Part shown: piece after piece, positions 54,113-64,000 of the stretch
Layout of the letters: each line of letters begins with the position of its first letter
How positions within the stretch are numbered: position 1 is the stretch's first letter
Program-made: the position numbers and the translations under genes
NCBI RefSeq assembly: GCF_031082295.1
Contig: NZ_JAVHLD010000005.1
Coordinates: 1 to 64,000 of the forward strand
Source: Humidesulfovibrio sp.
GTDB lineage: Bacteria; Desulfobacterota; Desulfovibrionia; Desulfovibrionales; Desulfovibrionaceae
Length of the DNA: 64,000 nt
Direction of reading: 5' to 3'
Notes under the pieces: model-generated
Seen by the model: the letters and a program-made list of their open reading frames with translations, nothing else
The model's database searches: none
What the model was told of the DNA's origin: nothing

Positions 54113-54188
54113 GGGGACGTAGCTCAGCTGGGAGAGCGATGCGTTCGCAACGCATAGGCCAGGGGTTCAATCCCCCTCGTCTCCACCA
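54113..54188 (+). tRNA. tRNA-Ala(CGC), integration target of an island
   Basis: The 76-nt cloverleaf includes encoded CCA. The acceptor GGGGACG pairs with CGTCTCC and contains the G3-U70 pair that marks alanine tRNA. The anticodon stem ATGCG/CGCAT encloses TTCGCAA, giving anticodon CGC (decodes GCG). The T arm AGGGG/CCCCT surrounds TTCAATC, and the discriminator is A. Its 3' half from 54144 is repeated 7.9 kb downstream. Confidence 0.97.
54144..54173 (+). repeat. Left attachment repeat (attL) inside tRNA-Ala
   Basis: These 30 nt, from the anticodon loop to the T loop of the tRNA, are identical to 62051-62080. Both copies are in the same orientation, which fits site-specific integration of an element that restored the tRNA at its left junction. 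Confidence 0.9.
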
Positions 54189-54997
54189 AAGAAAACAATG
54201 GTTTACGGCAAAATGCTGTAAACCATTTTTTCGTTTTGCTACCTTATTGCTACCGGTGCAAAATGCATATGTGCCGAATGACCAAGCATGAGCGACCACG
54301 CTTTATCCCAAGAGGAGCTTACTCCTACTGCTTCGTGCGCAATGGTGACCGCTTTTATCCTTCAATCTAGCACAGCCTTGTCCATAATCCGGGGTGAAGA
54401 ACCCTTTGCGGGTTAACTTCTGGCGCTGGTCCATTGTCTTCCTGATGGCTCCTTGCTTTTCGACAGGCTTGTCGGACGACAAGGACGACCTCAAGGCCCA
54501 GGTTTAGGGGGGCAGGTCACTTTGAATGGGCCAGATTCCGGTGGACAGCTCAACCACGTCTTCTCCGTGGACCACGCGGAGTTAGTATTCAGTGAGATCT
54601 TTGCCCTGGAAACCCTCGATGTTAAATTCCGAAGGCAGATGGCTGTCAAGGGCCAGGGCCGAAGCCCACCGCCTGGGTCAGGCCTTGGAGAAGTGTCAAC
54701 CGCGAGACTCGCTACCCACTGGCTTCCCCACCAGGAGTCGACGTCCCTCAATGGATGTTGCGCCCTTGCCCTTACGGCCTGTCAACTCGAAGACCATCGA
54801 AATTTGGGGCTTTCCCCCATGTTCGGGACATACTCCCAATGTGCGCCATCCATTCTCCGCAACAAATCAGTGCATACCCCTATTTACCCGACAGGACTCC
54901 ACGCATACACGACACCATCATGGGAATCTCACCTAACGATACGGTTGCATCTTCCCTCTGCTGATTGGCGAGGATGCGGCACTTGGAGGGGGGCAAT
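54189..54997. other. Degenerate left end of the island, no intact gene
   Basis: Directly after the tRNA the text has two GCTACC-containing TTGCTACC-like words (54236-54257), a pattern often seen next to tRNA-targeting tyrosine integrases. A short frame from 54264 encodes MCRMTKHERPRFIPRGAYSY and stops after 34 residues; it could be the remnant of an integrase N-terminus, but this is weak. Other short frames on both strands show no recognisable protein. Codon use is not like the host's. I interpret the stretch as decayed mobile-element DNA. Confidence 0.5.
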
Positions 54998-55192
54998 ATG
55001 TCACGCGATGCTGAGTACGCGCAGAAGCAGTTCCATGCGGAAAAGGCCGAGCGAGCCAAAAGCGAGCAGGTAGACAATGAACTGCGCACATTGCGCAGCA
55101 AGGTGAAGGCCCTTGAGGAAAAGGTCTCCAAACTCTCAACGGAGCTTACAACGAGAAGGGTCATTGGAGAGAACAAGCGAGGCTTTTCCTGA
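54998..55192 (+). CDS. Small coiled-coil protein of unknown function
   Basis: ATG at 54998 has GGAGGGGG 5 nt upstream and gives 64 residues: MSRDAEYAQKQFHAEKAERA followed by heptads with VDNELRTLRSKVKALEEKVS and KLSTEL. The whole protein is probably one alpha-helical coiled coil, cytoplasmic. It is the first intact gene of the island and lies about 130 nt upstream of the glutamate-synthase-like gene. It may be a regulator or adaptor; no family is recognised. A longer TTG start at 54965 is possible but lacks a site. Confidence 0.55.
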   Translation: MSRDAEYAQKQFHAEKAERAKSEQVDNELRTLRSKVKALEEKVSKLSTELTTRRVIGENKRGFS

Positions 55193-55320
55193 ACGCAATA
55201 TGAGTGATGAAGAGCACTAGCGGTGCACTACATAGGGGGGCATTGCTCGGTTAATCACAGGAGCACGTGCCAAGGGCAAGGGCAAGATTATCTGACGGTA
55301 TCATTGTAACGGGAGGAAGT

Positions 55321-56961
55321 ATGTCTCAGTGGTCCAAAAACAACGACGTTCTGAACACTGTTAACCGGGGCAACCCTTGTGAATCCGGCCTGTGCACCCT
55401 GTGCCGCGCCGACTGCTCCGGCAAGTGCGAAACCTGGCTCTCCAGCCTCAAGGGCCGCAGCCTGCTCTACCCCCGCGATTTCGGCACCGTCACTGCGGGC
55501 AGCAACAACACCTGCCATGTCGGCGTAAGCTACAATGCCCTGCGCATCCAAGGCTACAACTACGGCGCAGATGGCATGGCCCAGAACATGTCCACCTCTC
55601 CGGACAACTGCCTGTTCACCAAGGTCAACCTGGAGACGAGCTTCGGCAATGAGGATCCGGTCAAATGCCGTCTCCCCCTCATGACGGGCGCATTGGGTTC
55701 CACCTTCATCGCAGCCAAGTATTGGGACTCCTTCGCCATCGGCGGATCCCTGGCGGGCATCCCCGTTGTAGTCGGCGAGAATGTCGTCGGTGTGGACCGC
55801 CAATCCAAGCTCACCGCGAAGAAGATCACCAAGGCTCCTGAACTGGACCGCCGCGTGGAGACCTACCTGCGCTATCACGACGGGTATGGCGCCATCATCG
55901 TGCAAATGAACGTGGAGGACACCCGCAACGGCGTGGCCGAATATGTCATCAACAAGTACGGCGACAAGGTCTGCCTGGAGTTGAAGTGGGGCCAGGGCGC
56001 AAAGAACATCGGCGGCGAGATCGAGGTGGACAACCTGGACTACGCCCTGTTCCTGAAGGGACGCGGCTACCTGGTTGACCCGGATCCGGAGGATCCCAAG
56101 GTCCAGCACGCCTTCCACAGTGGCGCCATCAAGAGCTTTGCCCGCCACAGCCGCCTTGGCTACACCGATCTCACCTCCGAGGCCCAGGTCCGCGAGAGCT
56201 TCATGCAGTCCGTGGCCTACCTGCGCAAGCTGGGCTACAAGCGCATCTCGCTCAAGACCGGCTCCTACGGCATGGAAGCCCTGGCCATGTCCATCAAGTA
56301 TGCCAGTGACGCCAACCTCGACCTGTTGACCATCGACGGCTCCGGCGGCGGCACGGGCATGAGTCCTTGGAACATGATGGAGACCTGGGGCGTGCCGAGC
56401 ATCCTGCTGCACGCCAAGACCCGCGAATACGCGGCACTGCTGGCGGCACGTGGCCGCAAGGTGGTGGACATCTCCCTTGCCGGCGGCTTCGCACGCGAGG
56501 ACCACATATTCAAGGCCATGGCCCTGGGTGCGCCCTTCACCAAGCTTATCTGCATGGGCCGCGCCATCATGATCCCCGGTTTCCTGGGGGCCAACATTGA
56601 GGGCGTGCTCCATCCCGAGCGCAAGGCTCAGGTCTTCGGCAACTGGGACATCATGCCCAAGGCCATCAGCGACCTCGGAAAATCCCCCGAGCAGATCTTC
56701 GCCTGCTACGAAGACGTCAAAAAGAAGGTTGGCGCCAAGGAGATCAAGAACATTCCCTTCGGGGCAATCGCCTTCTGCACGTTGGCCGACAAGCTCGCCG
56801 CCGGGCTGCAGCAACTCCTGGCCGGAGCGCGCAGGTTCTCCCTGTCCGAACTGTGCCGCAACGACATCGCCTCAGCCAACCGCGAGACCGAGTTCGAGAC
56901 GGGCATTCCCTTCATTACCACTGTGCAGGATGAGACTGCCAGGAAGATCCTGGAGTCCTGA
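55321..56961 (+). CDS. Stand-alone glutamate-synthase-like FMN protein (GltB central-domain family)
   Basis: The protein has 546 residues; GGAGG lies 4 nt before the ATG. An N-terminal cysteine cluster (C20, C25, C28, C32, C36 in GNPCESGLCTLCRADCSGKC) is followed by the FMN-binding TIM barrel: VKCRLPLMTGALGSTFIAAK, VCLELKWGQGAKNIGGEIEV, LDLLTIDGSGGGTGMSPWNM, SLAGGFAREDHIFKAMALGA. No amidotransferase domain is present, and the CxxxxxCP [3Fe-4S] loop of classical GltB is missing; only GAPFTKLICMGRAIMIPGF remains. It might oxidise or reduce an amino-acid-like substrate with electrons from another donor. Exact reaction unknown. A 12-bp hairpin follows the stop. Confidence 0.85.
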   Translation: MSQWSKNNDVLNTVNRGNPCESGLCTLCRADCSGKCETWLSSLKGRSLLYPRDFGTVTAGSNNTCHVGVSYNALRIQGYNYGADGMAQNMSTSPDNCLFTKVNLETSFGNEDPVKCRLPLMTGALGSTFIAAKYWDSFAIGGSLAGIPVVVGENVVGVDRQSKLTAKKITKAPELDRRVETYLRYHDGYGAIIVQMNVEDTRNGVAEYVINKYGDKVCLELKWGQGAKNIGGEIEVDNLDYALFLKGRGYLVDPDPEDPKVQHAFHSGAIKSFARHSRLGYTDLTSEAQVRESFMQSVAYLRKLGYKRISLKTGSYGMEALAMSIKYASDANLDLLTIDGSGGGTGMSPWNMMETWGVPSILLHAKTREYAALLAARGRKVVDISLAGGFAREDHIFKAMALGAPFTKLICMGRAIMIPGFLGANIEGVLHPERKAQVFGNWDIMPKAISDLGKSPEQIFACYEDVKKKVGAKEIKNIPFGAIAFCTLADKLAAGLQQLLAGARRFSLSELCRNDIASANRETEFETGIPFITTVQDETARKILES

Positions 56962-56968
56962 TCCGAAA

Positions 56969-57004
56969 GAGGCCCCTTCCTTTTGGTGAGTGGGAAGGGG
57001 CCTC
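56969..57004 (+). terminator. Hairpin after the glutamate-synthase-like gene
   Basis: A perfect 12-bp stem (56969-56980 with 56993-57004) closes a 12-nt loop, starting 8 nt past the stop. There is no U-tract, so it may attenuate rather than fully terminate transcription into the kinase gene. Confidence 0.6.
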
Positions 57005-57082
57005 CCCCAAGCTTGGCTCGGCACGTCGGGCATGCTAGTGTCTGAACGTATCCCGATATGGATCAGGCATCAGGCGGAGTTT

Positions 57083-58249
57083 ATGCACGACATGCGCAGA
57101 ACCAAGTCCCAACTCATCGAGGAACTCAAACGGTTCCGACACAAAGAGGCGCACACCGACGCCCTTGCCAGAGAGCATGAGCGAGTCGAACGCGCCCTGC
57201 GCGAGCGTGTAAAAGAGCTGAATTGTCTCTATGGCATTTCGCACCTGGCGCAAAACAGGGAACTGCCAATGGAGGAGTTGGTCAGGCAGGTTGGAGAGTT
57301 GGTCTGCGCCTCCTGGCAGTACCCAGAAATTACTTGCGCCCGCATCCGCATCGAAGCCCACGACTGCACCACCCGAAACTATCGCAATAGCCCCTGGAGC
57401 CAATCAAGCCCCATCAACATCCAAGGGGAACACCTTGGGGAAATCGAGGTGCGCTATCTGGAAGAACGCCCGGAGAGTGATGAGGGGCCGTTCCTGCGAG
57501 AGGAGCGCAACCTGATTGACGCCGTGGCCCACAAGCTGGGCCGCTTGGTGCAGGCCAACCGCAGCGAGGCCCACATGCGAGTTCTCTCACGCGAACTCAT
57601 CAAGGCTCAGGAGAATGAACGCCTGCGCATCGCCACGGAACTGCACGACCATCTGGCCCAGGACCTCGCCGCGCTCAAGCTCGACCTGGGAGAACTCATG
57701 GAGCATCCACCGGCGCCTGGCCTTCCCATGCAGAACCGTTTGGCTGAACTCACTGAAAGGCTCTCCGGGGCCATCTCGTCCATTCGCAACTTGGCCTACG
57801 ACCTGCTTCCCCCGGGCCTGGAAGACCTGGGCCTCGTGCGGACCCTTAGGCGCTACTGCACGGACTTCGCCAACCGCAGCGGGCTTGCAGTGGACTTTTT
57901 CGCCGATGGCATGGAGGGTGTGCACCTCGGCTTCGAGACCCAGATCAACATCTACCGGCTGGTCCAAGAGTCCCTGACGAACGTTCGCAAGCACGCCCAG
58001 GCCAGCTGTGCCACAGTGCGGATCATCCGCTCTTACCCGAGCGTTATCGTACGCATTGAGGACAACGGGCAGGGGGTTGACCTTGAGCACCGCCTGGACG
58101 AGTTCTATCAGAGCAAGAAGATGGGCATATGGGGCATGCGCGAGCGGGCCAGGCTCCTTGGCGGGCACATCACCCTGCGCTCACGCCCAGGCCGAGGCAT
58201 GCGCATCCACATTGAAATCCCCCTGGAGAACATGAACAATGGTGCATAA
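57083..58249 (+). CDS. Soluble NarX/DegS-type sensor histidine kinase (HisKA_3)
   Basis: ATG at 57083, with AGGCGGAG 3 nt upstream, gives 388 residues; ATG at 57032 is an alternative. A coiled-coil start (RTKSQLIEELKRFRHKEAHT) leads into a GAF-like domain (LNCLYGISHLAQNRELPMEE, WQYPEITCARIRIE). The HisKA_3 motif ERLRIATELHDHLAQDLAAL carries His188, and the ATPase part shows NIYRLVQESLTNVRKHAQAS, VRIEDNGQGVD and MGIWGMRERARLLGGHITLR. There is no TM segment, so it senses a cytoplasmic signal. It overlaps its regulator gene by 11 nt. Confidence 0.88.
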   Translation: MHDMRRTKSQLIEELKRFRHKEAHTDALAREHERVERALRERVKELNCLYGISHLAQNRELPMEELVRQVGELVCASWQYPEITCARIRIEAHDCTTRNYRNSPWSQSSPINIQGEHLGEIEVRYLEERPESDEGPFLREERNLIDAVAHKLGRLVQANRSEAHMRVLSRELIKAQENERLRIATELHDHLAQDLAALKLDLGELMEHPPAPGLPMQNRLAELTERLSGAISSIRNLAYDLLPPGLEDLGLVRTLRRYCTDFANRSGLAVDFFADGMEGVHLGFETQINIYRLVQESLTNVRKHAQASCATVRIIRSYPSVIVRIEDNGQGVDLEHRLDEFYQSKKMGIWGMRERARLLGGHITLRSRPGRGMRIHIEIPLENMNNGA

Positions 58250-58913
58250 ACACAAGATTCTGGTCATCGACGATCACCCGATGTTCCGTGATGGTGTGAA
58301 GACCATTGTCCGGGCCAACCCAGCCTATGACATCGTCGCCGAGGCCGGGACCTGTGCCGAGGGCTTGGCCCTGGCAAGAAGCCTCCAGCCTGATCTCGTC
58401 ATCGTGGACATCTCCCTGCCTGACGGCAACGGCATTGACCTAGCGCGCGACATCCTGACTTACGCCCCGGAGAGCAGGGTGCTCATGCTCAGCATGCACT
58501 CCAAGGTCGAATTCATAGCCACGGCCTTCCAGGCTGGTGTCTCGGCCTACCTAGCCAAGGACTCCAGTCGAGACCAACTCCTGCAGGCCTTGGATGCTGT
58601 GTTGGCAGGCAAGCAGTACCTTGACGGCTCCCTCTCACCCAGGGTGCTCAGCGAGTTGCTCTTGCGCACCAACTCGGAAACGCGCATGGCTGACGCTTCC
58701 TACGGCAAGCTCTCACGACGGGAACAGCAGGTGCTGCGGCTCTTGGCCGAGGGACAGGCCCCGGCAGCCATCGCCGAGCGGCTGTTCATCTCCCGTAAAA
58801 CCGTGGAGAACCACCGCACCAACATCCTGCAAAAACTCGGCATCAAAAGCCCCGTGGCCCTGGTGCGCTACGCGGCGCGCATGGGTCTCATCGACCTGGA
58901 CACACAAGAGTAA
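58239..58913 (+). CDS. NarL/FixJ-type (LuxR HTH) response regulator
   Basis: The protein has 224 residues. The receiver has DDHPMFRDGV with DD at 11-12, the phospho-acceptor Asp57 in PDLVIVDISLPDGNGIDLAR, and Lys in AYLAKDSSRDQLLQAL. The C-terminal LuxR HTH is KLSRREQQVLRLLAEGQAPA, AIAERLFISRKTVENHRTNI, LQKLGIKSPVALVRYAA. The overlap with the kinase gene marks them as partners. Likely targets include the upstream glutamate-synthase-like gene; this is inference from position. Confidence 0.93.
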   Translation: MVHKHKILVIDDHPMFRDGVKTIVRANPAYDIVAEAGTCAEGLALARSLQPDLVIVDISLPDGNGIDLARDILTYAPESRVLMLSMHSKVEFIATAFQAGVSAYLAKDSSRDQLLQALDAVLAGKQYLDGSLSPRVLSELLLRTNSETRMADASYGKLSRREQQVLRLLAEGQAPAAIAERLFISRKTVENHRTNILQKLGIKSPVALVRYAARMGLIDLDTQE

Positions 58914-59251
58914 TGACGAATCATGCGGGCTTTCCGCGCCAAGCTCGCGGCATTGACAGTGCCCCCCCGCCTTGCAGTCCGCACAGGCTCGCAACAAAGC
59001 ATTCTTGTTGCCTGGTGGCGATTTGTCTCCTGATGACCACGCACCGGCACGGCAAATATGGTTACAAGCTGGTAGATTCCTGCCACCGAAGACGGAAGGA
59101 CCTCTTCCGCCGAAGAAGGGATCAACGGTTGCTCCTGCCACCTTATGGTCGGTATGGACGGCACAGGCCGAGCTGTCATGTTGGCCGAAACGGTTCTGTG
59201 CAGCCTTTTCCTTGTACCCAATCCCCTGGTGTGATTTCAGAAGCAAAGCAC
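58914..59251. other. Intergenic gap between regulator and GGDEF genes, nothing recognised
   Basis: These 338 nt separate the convergent regulator and diguanylate cyclase genes. Short frames exist on both strands, but none has a ribosome binding site or recognisable protein. No clear terminator was found. Confidence 0.5.
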
Positions 59252-61213
59252 CTAGGTGAGGTGGTTCTGCACAACCGTGACATTGCGGCCTTTGGATTTA
59301 GCAAGATAGCACGCCTCATCTGCGCAACGCATAAGTATATCAATACTATGCGCTCCGTTGTCGCAGGTGGTGACGCCGACACTTACAGTTAAACGCAGCG
59401 CATTTCCATCCACCCAGAAAAAGTTGTCTTCAAAAAAAAGGCGAATTTTCTCGGCAAGGCGAAAGGCTGATGCCGAATTTGTGTTTGGGGCAAGAATTCC
59501 AAATTCTTCACCGCCAATGCGGCCAATGGTGTCAGTTGTCCTCAACATGCTGGTCAAGGAATCTGCAAGAAACTGTAATGCCCGGTCACCGGCAGCATGT
59601 CCGTATGTATCATTAATGCTTTTAAAGTAGTCGATATCGAGGAGGATTAGGGATAGCGGGAGACAGTTGCGTTTTGCCTGGTTGATCTCGGATTCCGCTT
59701 GGTCCATGAAGTATCTTCTGTTACGCAATCCGGTCAGGCTGTCGGTTGTCGCAAGCTGGGTCAATGTCTTTTCTGCGATCATCTTATCCGTAATATCTCT
59801 GTAGCTCCAAAGCCTTCCAGAAATATTTCCTGCGTCCACCAAGGGACAGGAATATTGCTCCAGTACAGAGCCGTTTTTCAAATGGATCAAGTCCAGTCTG
59901 CATCCTTCGCCTGAGCAAAGCTCATGCATATTCAGTAGGTGCTCAGACTCGGGGGAAACAGATCCGACCATGCCGGACAGCACAAATTCTCTTATTGTAC
60001 TCTGTTCGAGATGGGGATCCAGATTCCATACTTTCAAGAATTGAGTGTTGTAGTGTATGATTTTAGAGTTGACATCCAGCACAATGATGCCATCGCTTGT
60101 CGATTCCAATATTAATTTCAGCTCGTAAGCCTTTTTGCTTAAGGACGTCTCCGTCATTTCTTCGATTTTTCTGGCTATTGTAGCAATCTCGTGGTTTGAG
60201 AATCTACTTGTCGGCATGGGAGAGTGCTTGCCATCTGTAATGTCGGCAATGCGCTTGCCAAGCGAAGTCAAGGGACCGACAAACCGTTTCTCGTATATTT
60301 TGACCTGTGCCAACCCCAAGGCTATCGCCATCAGGATTAAAAAAAGCACGAACAGGGAAAGTTTTACGCGTATTGGTGTTGTTATTTCGGAGCTGTCTAT
60401 TGCAGAGACGATGGTCCAGTCCGTTGACTTCAATTTTTTGTAGACTGCCATCCGGTTTCTTCCAGATAGTGTGTATTCAATGTATCCAGAATTTTCTGTA
60501 AGTAATTTGCTTAAACCAGGGACAATCGTGTCCATATCCTTTTGTATATATTCCTCGTTCTGATGCACCAAGATTGTGCCCTTGCTGTCCACCACAAAAT
60601 TTGCTTGAGAATCGTAGTATTTTGCGGAATTCAGCAGGCTGTTTGCGTACTCGAGCGAACAGTCAAGTGAAATGACACCCGAAATATTGGAATGAGCATC
60701 GACGAGTGTCTTGGATATCGATAGAAGCCATTCTCCTGTTTGAATTTCGCGGTATGGGATACCTACGGACAGGTCTGGGAACTTTTTCATCGCAGAAGTA
60801 TACCACGGTCGTGTCCTAGGGTCATAATTTGCGACCGGCGTATAGTCGTTGATCAGCAGATCGCCATTAGTGTACCCAGAGTAGCAATACTTAATATTTG
60901 AATTTGCATTTGTTATTGATCTGTATCGATTTAGTACGGTTTTCTCCATCGTTTTGTTGTGATTTATGAAGTTTGCAACATCTGAATCGTCCGCCAGTAT
61001 TTTTGCTGTAACAATAAGACCTTCTAGAGTGGCCTCAGTGTATGTTGAAATTCTAAAGTTAGAGCTAATGATCTTTTGACGCGCTTCGTTCATGCCCAGC
61101 ATATATATGCTTGTAGATAGTATTGCTATAAATACTGCAGACATCATCATCGAGCTTGCCAGCTCAATGAAGAAGAATTCGTTCTTCAATGTTAATTTAT
61201 ATTTAGAAAACAC
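59252..61213 (-). CDS. dCache-HAMP-PAS-GGDEF diguanylate cyclase, probable amino-acid sensor
   Basis: The protein has 653 residues and markedly AT-rich codons compared with its neighbours. TM1 is about 16-40 and TM2 about 284-304. The periplasmic dCache_1 domain between them contains YDPRTRPWYTSA at 130-141 and ISLDCSLEY at 181-189; the spacing of Tyr130, Arg135, Trp137, Tyr138 and Asp184 fits the amino-acid-binding dCache motif. A HAMP linker (RFVGPLTSLGKRIADITDGK), a PAS domain (LILESTSDGIIVLDVNSKII) and a GGDEF domain follow, with the active-site RIGGEEFGIL at 566-574 and TDSLTGLRNRRYF. It makes c-di-GMP, and the sensor side probably responds to an amino acid. Confidence 0.9.
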   Translation of the reverse strand: MFSKYKLTLKNEFFFIELASSMMMSAVFIAILSTSIYMLGMNEARQKIISSNFRISTYTEATLEGLIVTAKILADDSDVANFINHNKTMEKTVLNRYRSITNANSNIKYCYSGYTNGDLLINDYTPVANYDPRTRPWYTSAMKKFPDLSVGIPYREIQTGEWLLSISKTLVDAHSNISGVISLDCSLEYANSLLNSAKYYDSQANFVVDSKGTILVHQNEEYIQKDMDTIVPGLSKLLTENSGYIEYTLSGRNRMAVYKKLKSTDWTIVSAIDSSEITTPIRVKLSLFVLFLILMAIALGLAQVKIYEKRFVGPLTSLGKRIADITDGKHSPMPTSRFSNHEIATIARKIEEMTETSLSKKAYELKLILESTSDGIIVLDVNSKIIHYNTQFLKVWNLDPHLEQSTIREFVLSGMVGSVSPESEHLLNMHELCSGEGCRLDLIHLKNGSVLEQYSCPLVDAGNISGRLWSYRDITDKMIAEKTLTQLATTDSLTGLRNRRYFMDQAESEINQAKRNCLPLSLILLDIDYFKSINDTYGHAAGDRALQFLADSLTSMLRTTDTIGRIGGEEFGILAPNTNSASAFRLAEKIRLFFEDNFFWVDGNALRLTVSVGVTTCDNGAHSIDILMRCADEACYLAKSKGRNVTVVQNHLT

Positions 61214-62050
61214 AGTTGTGGTCTCCGCTTAGCCTTGCATGCCGGAATCTAAAGTGCCCGCGAATATTCTTGCGACGGAAGCTGAACACACTGTAGCACG
61301 CGGTTGGCTCTGAACACCCAGGCCATTGGGGGGGGTAGCCTTTTGCCTGTCCTGCGCTGATAGGCCTCGGAACATATCAAGATTTAAAACATTAACACTT
61401 TACTTCAATTAGCTCAACAAACATTGATCCAAAGTCTCACACGTTTTTGTGTCCAGCCATCAGCTGAGCACTCAGCTGAGCACCCCGCGGGTAAGGGGTG
61501 GCATTTCCTCTGATCGCACAATTCCTGAATGTGGCCTCCTGGAATTCGGCTGTATATGTCGTCAGAGCCATTCTTCTGCGCTCACCAGGCTATTCCAAAT
61601 TTGCAAATCAACGTGACAGGTTGCATGTTGTTCATCGTTCCAGCCCTGGACAGCCCCACCTGTGGTGTATTCCCATCTCCATCACATGCCGTCCAGCCGC
61701 TCAATCGCCGCAAATGAGGCTCGGATTCTTGCATGCGTCTCGTTAGTGCTTTTACAGGTCTGATGATGCGGCGTGAACGCGCTACAGGGCTATCCCACTT
61801 GGCCTGCGAGGCCACCGGATTCGATCCCAGTTCGCGCATGGCTCACTTTAGGCACAGGGCTTAACGCTTGCCCCTTGTTTCGTTTGACAGATCCTTCATT
61901 TCTGGCGGCAGGAGAAAGGGTCGCGCTATGCAGAGGTCATCACGAACCGCGGCACGCTTGAGGTGTGTGAACTCCAATGACAGCAGCATGCGGAATGCCC
62001 AAGGCCTAAAAATGTATTATGGATTCGAAGCATGTGCTGTGGTCAGCGCC
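61214..62050. other. Right part of the island without recognised genes
   Basis: About 840 nt of mixed composition. The first 150 nt presumably hold the promoter of the GGDEF gene on the minus strand. Frames of 60-85 residues exist (for example 61498-61746 and 61582-61839) but have no ribosome binding site and no recognisable product. A tRNA T-arm-like word at 61790-61840 does not fold into a tRNA. Nothing else supported. Confidence 0.5.
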
Positions 62051-62080
62051 TTCGCAACGCATAGGCCAGGGGTTCAATCC
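62051..62080 (+). repeat. Right attachment repeat (attR)
   Basis: This is an exact 30-nt copy of tRNA-Ala positions 54144-54173. The following 15 nt resemble the tRNA 3' end (ACTCGTTTCCATCA against CCTCGTCTCCACCA) but with changes, as expected for a decayed displaced end; no full tRNA can form here. Confidence 0.9.
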
Positions 62081-62304
62081 AACTCGTTTCCATCAAGAAA
62101 ACAACTGGTTGCAGCAGAAATGCCGCAGCCCGTTTCTTGTCATTTTCTCTCCGCCTGCCGCCGCGGCACCTCCTGCGCACTCCCCGCGCCCATCAACACA
62201 TGGCCATTTGTGCCCGTCATTCGAAAAATCGGTTGCCCCTTCCCCGTTTTAATGTGTATGTTCTCGTTATTCTGGAGATATCGCATCCATTCCGGGAGCT
62301 GCCC

Positions 62305-64000
62305 ATGCAGGAGTTCGCCCGCATTATCGCCGCCAGCGAAGATTGGCTTATGGAGCGCGTGCTGTCCTACGCCCTGAGGCAGGGATACACAAAGTACACA
62401 TCCACCCAAGCCGAGCCTTGGCGCCTGTCCATCCGCGGACTCTCCGGCGCGCTGCTGAACGCATTGCCCGGCTCTCAAGCGGGTCTGGAGTTCGGGCCGG
62501 ACGACACCTTTTCCGAGGATCCGGCGTCGGTCTTCGCGGTCCAGGAGGCGCGCCTGCACAGGGCCAGGGGCATCAGCCTGTCCATGTTCCTCGGCCTGCT
62601 CAAGTACTACCGCCAGGCTTACCTGGACCTCACGGATGAAGCCGACCCGGTCGACGAGCGGCCCCTGACCCGGCCTTTCGTGGAGCGTTTTTTCGATCGC
62701 GTGGAGGTGGGCATCGCCTCGGAATGGTGCGCCATCTCGGAAACCGTGCAGCACGGGGAGCTGCGCGAAGCCAACAGGCTCATCGTCAACGAAAAGAACC
62801 GCTACCTGACCGTATTCAAGAGCCTGGCCGCACCGGTGGTCTACATCGGCAAGGACGGGCTCGTTCAAAACATCAATGCGGCGGCAACCGACTGGCTCCA
62901 GAAGGTGTCTGGCTTCGGCGGCGCCTGTTCCCCCGCCGGGACGCCTCAGGCCAGCGGGTCCGCTGACGGCGCAACCTATCGCGGGCGGGCGGCGAAGGAG
63001 CTGTTCCCCTGGCTGGAAGAACCGCTCATGCGTGTGCTCCGGGGCGACGACGCCAGAGTGACCCTTGAACATCGGCTCGGAGAAGGCGGGACCGTCTGCG
63101 ACATCAGGGTGACGATTTCGCCAAGCCTGGACATGAGCGGGAGATTCGAAGGCGCCGTGCTGGTCCTTCAGGATGTGACGGAGCTCCGCAAGGCGCAGGA
63201 GCTCCTGAGCAAGTCCAACCAAGTTTTGCAATCTGAGGTCCAGATGCGGACCAGCGCGCTCGAGGAGGCCAACCGCCGCCTCAAGAGCGAGGTGCGCGAG
63301 CGCGAGCTTTACCAGCAGGCCCTTACCGAGAGCGCCGCCCTCTACCGAGCCGTGGTGGAGGATCAGGGCGAGCTGATTTGCCGTTTCAAGCCCGACGGCT
63401 CGATCCTCTTTGCCAACAAGGCTTACATGCGCATATTTGAAGGCAGCTCTGTGCCGCTGGCCGACGGAGCGGGCCTGTTCCTGTACGACGGCAAACAGCG
63501 GTCCATCGGGGAACTGCTGGCCATGGTCACCGTAGATGCCCCGGTAATGAGCATTGAGCAGCAGGCCGTCACGCCCTCCGGCCAGCGTGTGTGGTACGTC
63601 TGGACCTGTCGGGGCATCTTCGACGATGCCGGCCAGTTGGATGCCTACCAACTGGTGGGCGGAGACGTCACCCGGGCGCGGGAGGCCGAGCAGGCCCTGC
63701 GCGAGCTCAACGAGTCCCTGGAGCGGACCGTTCGGGAGCGCACGGATACGCTCGAGGAGCGTGCCTTGAGCTTCGAGCGCATGAACAAGACCCTGACGAC
63801 GCAGGTGGAAAGCCGGCGGCAGGCGGAGCTGGCCCTGGCCAAGGCCGCGGCCGAGCAACAGGCCAAGGTGCGCCAGATCACGGCGCTGTATGGCTTGTCC
63901 GAGGTGCTGGGCAAGCGCTGGGACAGCGAGCTGGAGATGCTGGACCATGCGGTGAGCGCGCTTCAGGGGGGATGGCGCGACCAGGACGGCACGGAGGTGG
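62305..64000 (+). CDS. Multi-PAS sensor protein, probably a histidine kinase, 3' end cut
   Basis: The frame runs 565 codons to the window edge from ATG 62305 (GGGAG at 6 nt). The first 150 residues (EDWLMERVLSYALRQGYTKY, SLSMFLGLLKYYRQAYLDLT, VEVGIASEWCAISE) form an all-helical globin-like or unknown sensor domain. PAS domains follow (LTVFKSLAAPVVYIGKDGLV; YRAVVEDQGELICRFKPDGS with the PAS signature), separated by coiled coils such as SEVQMRTSALEEANRRLKSE and RERTDTLEERALSFERMNKT. No TM segment is visible. The kinase domain, if any, is beyond the window. It lies outside the island, 225 nt past attR. Confidence 0.8.
   Translation, partial: MQEFARIIAASEDWLMERVLSYALRQGYTKYTSTQAEPWRLSIRGLSGALLNALPGSQAGLEFGPDDTFSEDPASVFAVQEARLHRARGISLSMFLGLLKYYRQAYLDLTDEADPVDERPLTRPFVERFFDRVEVGIASEWCAISETVQHGELREANRLIVNEKNRYLTVFKSLAAPVVYIGKDGLVQNINAAATDWLQKVSGFGGACSPAGTPQASGSADGATYRGRAAKELFPWLEEPLMRVLRGDDARVTLEHRLGEGGTVCDIRVTISPSLDMSGRFEGAVLVLQDVTELRKAQELLSKSNQVLQSEVQMRTSALEEANRRLKSEVRERELYQQALTESAALYRAVVEDQGELICRFKPDGSILFANKAYMRIFEGSSVPLADGAGLFLYDGKQRSIGELLAMVTVDAPVMSIEQQAVTPSGQRVWYVWTCRGIFDDAGQLDAYQLVGGDVTRAREAEQALRELNESLERTVRERTDTLEERALSFERMNKTLTTQVESRRQAELALAKAAAEQQAKVRQITALYGLSEVLGKRWDSELEMLDHAVSALQGGWRDQDGTEV

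Follow-up and report, generated by a model that had tools for sequence, protein, structure and literature searches.

A probable remnant of an integrated element in a tRNA-Ala(CGC) gene of Humidesulfovibrio encloses genes shared by the genus

Introduction

Does a direct repeat of part of a tRNA gene mean that the DNA between the two copies was imported? We asked this of bases 1-64000 of contig C55 of a Humidesulfovibrio sp. genome (G000; 3.45 Mb, 73 contigs). In this window, by which we mean the whole stretch of 64,000 nucleotides that was analysed, a tRNA-Ala(CGC) gene is followed several kilobases downstream by an exact copy of part of its 3' half. The interval between the tRNA and that copy holds a cassette of genes for a glutamate-synthase-like (Glt-like) protein, a histidine kinase and a response regulator, and a separate gene for a diguanylate cyclase. 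An earlier, sequence-only reading had described a decayed but clearly bounded genomic island.

We think it likely that the interval is a decayed remnant, of the integrative and mobilizable element (IME) or cis-mobilizable element (CIME) kind, in the 3' half of tRNA-Ala(CGC). The repeat copy at 62051 would be an internal junction of a tandem, the cassette would have come in by rearrangement, and the cyclase would have been imported.

Results

We found that the sequence TTCGCAACGCATAGGCCAGGGGTTCAATCC is present twice in the window, in identical copies on the + strand (Table 1), just as the sequence-only reading had stated. When up to 3 mismatches were allowed, there were still only these two sites. 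No match was obtained in 100 shuffled sequences, and the earlier judgement that the repeat is hard to get by chance holds. The 30-nt core is the best part of an ungapped repeat of 91 nt (54141-54231 and 62048-62138, 76% identity), which also takes in the hairpin behind the tRNA; BLAST gave 84% over 62048-62123. A direct repeat of the 3' part of the tRNA at the far end is a mark of tRNA-borne genomic islands, and it is found here. A third, degenerate copy of the tRNA-Ala 3' half is present elsewhere in the genome (C27:22550-22603; L055:7551-7604; 83% over 54 nt). It lies 1.4 kb from a C-terminal fragment of an integrase, amid uncharacterised open reading frames (ORFs).

The interval differs from the host in base composition. 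Its GC content (54189-62050) was 0.546 versus 0.672 for 1-54112, and 1-kb tiles of 1-53000, taken as the host reference, had a mean of 0.672 (sd 0.030). The low GC reported earlier is thus confirmed. It is uneven: 0.600 in the cassette (54727-59015), 0.441 in the diguanylate cyclase gene (59252-61213), and 0.526 and 0.529 in the decayed margins. The departure from the host that is typical of islands is strongest in the cyclase gene and the margins. No housekeeping families were found among the ORFs scanned in the interval, in agreement with the sequence-only reading.

In this genus, tRNA-Ala(CGC) proved to be a hotspot of integration that has been filled repeatedly. We searched 14 congeners (G001-G014; probably Humidesulfovibrio, family Desulfovibrionaceae). 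A 641-base query around the tRNA had matches in 52 of 59 genomes, including all 15 members of the genus (15/15), and ARAGORN identified tRNA-Ala(CGC) in the fetched loci of 11 congeners. The tRNA of G014 is cut by contig ends, and G011 has a 78% partial copy only. The contig that carries the tRNA has further copies downstream of it in four congeners: G002 (11.5 and 29.4 kb away), G005 (~19 kb), G010 (~17 kb) and G013 (~11 kb, partial). Copies on contigs other than that of the tRNA are present in G001, G003 (77%), G004, G006 (76%), G008 and G013.

Several of these copies adjoin integrase genes. In both G005 and G010, genes for integrases of family PF00589 end no more than 0.3 kb from a copy. 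The third copy of G002 has an integrase homologue (97%) at a distance of 0.23 kb, and a partial homologue (74%) is at the G001 copy. A PF00589 protein adjoins the tRNA itself in G013. The G005 unit carries a Mob_Pre relaxase, with a clustered homologue in G002. Among the other contents are a heavy-metal ATPase, a multicopper oxidase and a protein kinase (G002 unit 1) and a protein with a FokI-type cleavage domain (G010).

Both occupied and lone sites are seen among the congeners. G009 has a lone tRNA with no second copy matched, adjoining an HD-domain gene, an ABC ATPase-like gene (recognized by eye) and more genes. These right-hand genes sit beyond the copy in G008, and beyond the copy and one more gene in G001; the HD gene is not at this place in G008. 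At the far copy of G005, the terminator behind the copy groups with the lone-tRNA terminators of G009 and G007. A response-regulator gene, found at 72.3-74.2 kb of the window's contig, lies 0.7 kb past that terminator; we call it the tmc-side regulator gene. Because integrases lie beside the copies in congeners, and because the site is lone in G009 and bears a copy in G008, the interval in the window is most likely island-derived. Integration at tRNA-Ala(CGC) followed by decay, as proposed earlier, is thus supported.

Some features of the congener loci stand apart from this comparison. The tRNA-Ala(CGC) of G002 (C3, ~313.6-313.75 kb; L056:17605-17746) is without its first five bases and ~90 upstream bases and abuts the stop codon of the neighbouring gene; an intact second copy was not matched. 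This truncation is either a real loss or an assembly error. A second PF00589 protein in G013 lies near the copy at C47:15035-15132 (L078), with a tRNA-Met in between, and judging by this arrangement related elements may use a second site. A cas2-like gene is present ~0.9 kb beyond the far attachment (att) copy of G010 C23 (L061, 18434-19775), and this far junction may border a CRISPR locus.

Both ends of the interval resemble those of G002 unit 1, whose contents differ, and this supports the reading as an element remnant. The left arm behind the tRNA (54189-54256) was 91% identical to the tRNA flank of G002 over 68 nt, 97% to a G013 copy over 65 nt and 77% to G005 over 64 nt. Its hairpin (-20.4 kcal/mol, z -7.4), with the T-run, is probably the tRNA terminator. 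On the other side, 61969-62123 was 76% identical to the region of the first downstream copy in G002. In the DNA comparison with the congener loci, the left margin at 54257-54726 matched nothing.

The interval appears to have lost its mobility genes. No integrase and no transfer genes were found among its scanned ORFs. A tblastn search of 54190-55330 and 58900-62320 with the called proteins of 19 relative loci gave no integrase remnant at E<=0.1 (~30 weak matches) and no relaxase match in these two margins. The best matches in G000 to the two copy-adjoining integrase families of relatives had 41% and 44% identity, and none was inside the interval. The loss of the integrase that had been proposed is thus supported. 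Neither of the two families was matched in G002 unit 1, though its ends resemble those of the window unit. One 37-codon stretch (59088-59198) may be a relic of the ORF that adjoins the relaxase gene of G005. It scored 29.6 and 28.5 bits in tblastn against the margins (27.7 when the second query was rerun), and the best of 400 shuffles scored 24.3. This match was chosen from the called proteins of 19 loci and is no more than suggestive of a relaxase-neighbour relic.

We found that the DNA beyond the right-hand copy resembles element arms more than the terminators of lone tRNA genes. The comparison took the 48 nt that follow every tRNA and every copy, in 27 of 28 sequences (G034 was left out). 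At three clusters there were 8 native-like sequences (G001t, G005a, G007t, G008a, G009t, G010t, G012t and G014a), 18 element-like sequences and one alone. The two sequences from the window, one following the tRNA and one following the copy, fell in the element-like group. The sequence behind 62096 scored 25.0 with G010a and G005t and 23.0 with G013a and G001a. Against the native-like sequences, its best score was 15.0 (G005a), and it scored 8.5 with G009t. Some element-like sequences score 10.5 or less with it.

Because the right arm is like that of G002 and the hairpin behind the copy is element-like, the site at 62051 reads arm-core-arm. Judging from these likenesses, the 62051 copy is most likely a junction inside what was once a tandem, and not the outer edge. 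Up to 100 kb of C55, we found only the two known copies and no further tRNA-end copy or native terminator (exact-word search; 45-nt scan with 16 mismatches allowed). The island had been called clearly bounded. This is doubtful, since the DNA after 62096 resembles element arms more than native-like terminators and no outer copy was found up to 100 kb. Host-type DNA with homologues starts at 62256 (G002), 62267 (G005) or 62294 (G013). Isolates of the same species in which the tRNA runs into a GGCACTTG-type terminator, with different host DNA beyond it, would fit the tandem reading.

The host-type DNA begins with a sensor kinase gene (62305-66744 in contig numbering). C55 62305-71431 is a block of this large sensor kinase and several response regulators that adjoins the tmc-side regulator gene, likewise in G013. 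Parts of the block sit apart from that gene in G002 and G012.

We found that the cassette is shared within the genus. At >=85% identity, the Glt-like protein occurs in 8 of 15 members (G000, G001, G002, G006, G007, G009, G013 and G014, that is, 7 of the 14 congeners); its gene is cut by contig ends in G006 and G007. The kinase and regulator accompany it in all 8 genomes, and also in G030 and G042, which belong to other genera; the stretches fetched from G016 and G018 did not show them at >=40% identity. A small ORF lies upstream of the enzyme gene here and in G001, G002, G006, G009, G013 and G014; its longer 75-aa reading had no Pfam or NCBIfam match. NCBIfam matches of the kinase, such as NarQ and NarX, were below cut-off. 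The Glt-like protein is without the CPVG motif of the usual glutamate synthase iron-sulfur site, and so glutamate synthase activity is not assured. No solved structure matched this protein at E<=0.01.

The neighbourhood of the cassette varies. In congener locus comparisons, from which tblastn matches below 35% or 40% identity were dropped, G001, G006, G009 and G014 had one context in common, and G002, G013, G007 and G000 each had a different one. The right-hand neighbour gene of the G002 cassette had matches in 5 of 15 genomes; the fetched loci were too short for the left neighbour, even in G002. Another cassette neighbour gene, c31, had matches of >=65% only in G006, G009, G010 and G014 (best G000 match, 45%).

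Synonymous divergence (dS) was calculated for 22 loci (clusters at >=55% identity, pairs of >=60 codons). Compared with G002, dS of the four cassette genes was 0.33-0.61, and that of other genes was 0.19-0.71. Recent lateral exchange of the cassette is not indicated, as its dS is within the range of other genes. The ratio of nonsynonymous divergence (dN) to dS was ~0.10 for the three larger cassette genes compared with G002. Compared with G001, G009 and G014, dS of the kinase and regulator was 0.79-1.04, above the 0.39-0.74 of the other genes compared, and a strictly vertical history across the genus is weakened because of this. Third-position GC averaged 0.90 over 34 other genes and was lower in the cassette (0.75-0.85), which also fell below the cassettes of five relatives.

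The sequence-only reading took the main cargo to have come with the island. This was not borne out: 7 of the 14 congeners have the cassette among other neighbours, and its dS from G002 is like that of other genes. From these comparisons, the cassette was probably not imported with the island. Given its divergence from G002 and G013, entry by rearrangement is likelier than import.

Only the diguanylate cyclase, within the interval, looks foreign by sequence. None of the 14 congeners had a match at E<=1e-60, and matches were found in 2 of 84 other genomes searched (46% and 39%), with at most 12 candidates per genome scored.

Table 1. Positions of features in and around the tRNA-Ala(CGC) interval
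Feature	Position	Strand	Remarks
tRNA-Ala(CGC), intact, integration target	54113-54188	+	ARAGORN; Rfam RF00005, 67 bits
Left 30-nt exact repeat copy (tRNA 3' half)	54144-54173	+	
Element-type left arm	54189-54256	+	Strong hairpin and T-run; CTACCTTATTGCTACC motif
Decayed left margin	54257-54726		Scanned ORF without family match
Cassette	54727-59015	+	DNA homologous to G013 C42 (83%, whole stretch) and G002 C3 (88.5%, 54850-58905)
Small ORF, 64 aa	54998-55192	+	dN 0.041, dS 0.464 versus G002
Glutamate-synthase-like protein, 546 aa	55321-56961	+	PF01645
Histidine kinase (HisKA_3 and HATPase_c)	57083-58249	+	Start set by G002 homologue, 388 aa
Response regulator with LuxR-type HTH	58239-58913	+	NarL-like matches below cut-off
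Possible relic of the neighbour ORF of the G005 Mob_Pre relaxase gene (homologue in G002)	59088-59198	+	37 codons
dCache-GGDEF diguanylate cyclase, 653 aa, intact	59252-61213	-	GC 0.441; GGEEF present; PAS match below cut-off
Decayed segment	61631-61913		69% to G002 second tandem unit, stretch without called genes (C3, ~295.7-296.0 kb)
Right arm	61969-62050	+	Homologous to DNA left of first downstream copy in G002
Right 30-nt exact repeat copy	62051-62080	+	tRNA 3' end likeness spans 62048-62096
Hairpin after right copy, groups with element arms	62097-62138	+	17-mer GGTTGCAGCAGAAATGC also after G010 copy
Host-type DNA resumes	62256-64000	+	Homology to G002 C8 from 62256

Discussion

Based on these results we suggest the following history. 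Recombination by a tyrosine integrase would have inserted an element into the 3' half of tRNA-Ala(CGC). On insertion, the element's own copies would have taken the place of the tRNA's 3' half and its terminator, keeping the tRNA functional. Elements would then have stacked in tandem at the tRNA, and the integrase and transfer genes would have decayed afterwards. A later rearrangement would have removed the outer unit and the native tRNA flank, joining host DNA at ~62.14-62.26 kb. The Glt-like/histidine kinase/response regulator cassette would have entered by rearrangement, and the diguanylate cyclase by import. At the level of the genus this mechanism is seen in integrases beside copies, serial copies, and lone and occupied sites; for the window we infer it. 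The unit is now probably fixed, although an integrase from an external source might still use its two putative att copies.

Several observations weigh against this history. The relaxase-neighbour relic is weak. At two clusters, the native-like and element-like terminators are not separated. A CTA(A/C)C..TATT motif present in 12 of 27 sequences is missing from the sequence after the right copy, and that sequence could be diverged native DNA. G010 and G001 are reversed, with native-like sequence behind the tRNA and element-like sequence behind the copy; a newer element inserted next to the tRNA, ahead of an older arm, would account for this. G012, with a single copy, combines a native-like hairpin with the motif, and the two-class scheme is imperfect. 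The sequence-only reading had proposed a search for empty sites. No fetched congener stretch has this gene content by the tRNA, as that proposal would have it; with no close strain among the genomes compared, an empty site exactly matching this genome was not observed. The assemblies of several relatives are fragmented, and those of G001, G004, G008, G012 and G014 have a contig end less than 2.5 kb from the tRNA, which makes them uninformative on content.

A simpler history would be a single complete insertion: an island from the tRNA to 62080, native flank from 62097, the integrase lost and the cargo imported. The identical 30-nt copies, both on the + strand, and the lower GC are as this predicts. 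The right copy is altered in its acceptor part, as expected of a right attachment site (attR) free of selection, and the sequence after it is without the element motif. However, the hairpin after 62096 is nearest to element arms (25.0 and 23.0) and scores lower with native-like sequences (15.0 and 8.5), and the cassette was probably not imported. We consider a single insertion unlikely. It is also quite unlikely, in our view, that the cassette is old host DNA to the right of the tRNA, with the repeat copy put beyond it by rearrangement, an account that is compatible with element-derived margins. In G009 the cassette does lie downstream of the tRNA, ~25 kb away and with its relative orientation unchanged. 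Its dS from both G002 and G013 is like that of other genes, and G001, G006, G009 and G014 keep the cassette in a common context. Yet G002, and by most genes G013, are closer to G000 and have the cassette in other neighbourhoods; moreover, element-type DNA directly follows the tRNA here, and the 25 kb that intervene in G009 are not present.

That the repeat is a chance or dispersed sequence with no tie to integration is extremely improbable. The degenerate copy on C27 would suit a dispersed repeat, but copies in relatives are at the ends of integrase-bearing units, and we rejected chance because there was no match in the shuffles. More doubtful than the single-insertion and old-host accounts, and far less so than a chance repeat, is a broader idea about the genus. 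Its tRNA-Ala(CGC) att copies may form a hub of recombination, by which gene sets that are inherited vertically and are not themselves mobile get moved. The cassette diverges from its closest relatives as other genes do, yet it has five neighbourhoods in eight genomes, and here it would have been captured between two att copies. If this were true, an incoming element could carry the captured cassette away.

By its features, the element remnant that we favour is best classed as cis-mobilizable-element-like. CIMEs have no integration genes and no transfer genes, and neither kind was found in the interval. It falls outside the IMEs, which have an integrase of their own and a relaxase or oriT; integrase and relaxase were both not found in it. 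An IME review (PMC5704250) describes CIMEs and the tandem accretion of elements. The interval is like the CIMEs described there in its two att-like flanking copies, the absence of detected integration and transfer genes, its decay and its tandem-prone site. It is unlike them in that more than half of it is a cassette shared by congeners and not recognisable element DNA, and in that the att role is putative. Dehalococcoides has ssrA islands without an integrase, which the authors suggest to be CIMEs (PMC3146451). There too, tandem units with and without an integration module are marked by direct repeats of the 3' end of an RNA gene. Those islands involve a serine recombinase and ssrA, whereas here the tyrosine integrases (in relatives) and tRNA-Ala(CGC) are involved. 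Closer to hand, the IME-like unit of G005 (tyrosine integrase and Mob_Pre, with homologous genes in G002) has the same tRNA, the same core repeat and a similar left arm. In contrast to this IME-like unit, the window unit is without integrase or relaxase and has at most the 37-codon relaxase-neighbour relic.

The remnant itself is of a familiar kind; its filling is unusual. The interest of the locus lies in the hotspot and in the presence of genus-shared genes inside an island. It carries a warning that a tRNA with a direct repeat is no proof of import, as the main genes here are common to congeners, in other neighbourhoods. For this genus of environmental sulfate reducers, the locus is a tandem-island hotspot at which units with an integrase, units in which none was detected, and lone tRNA genes all occur.

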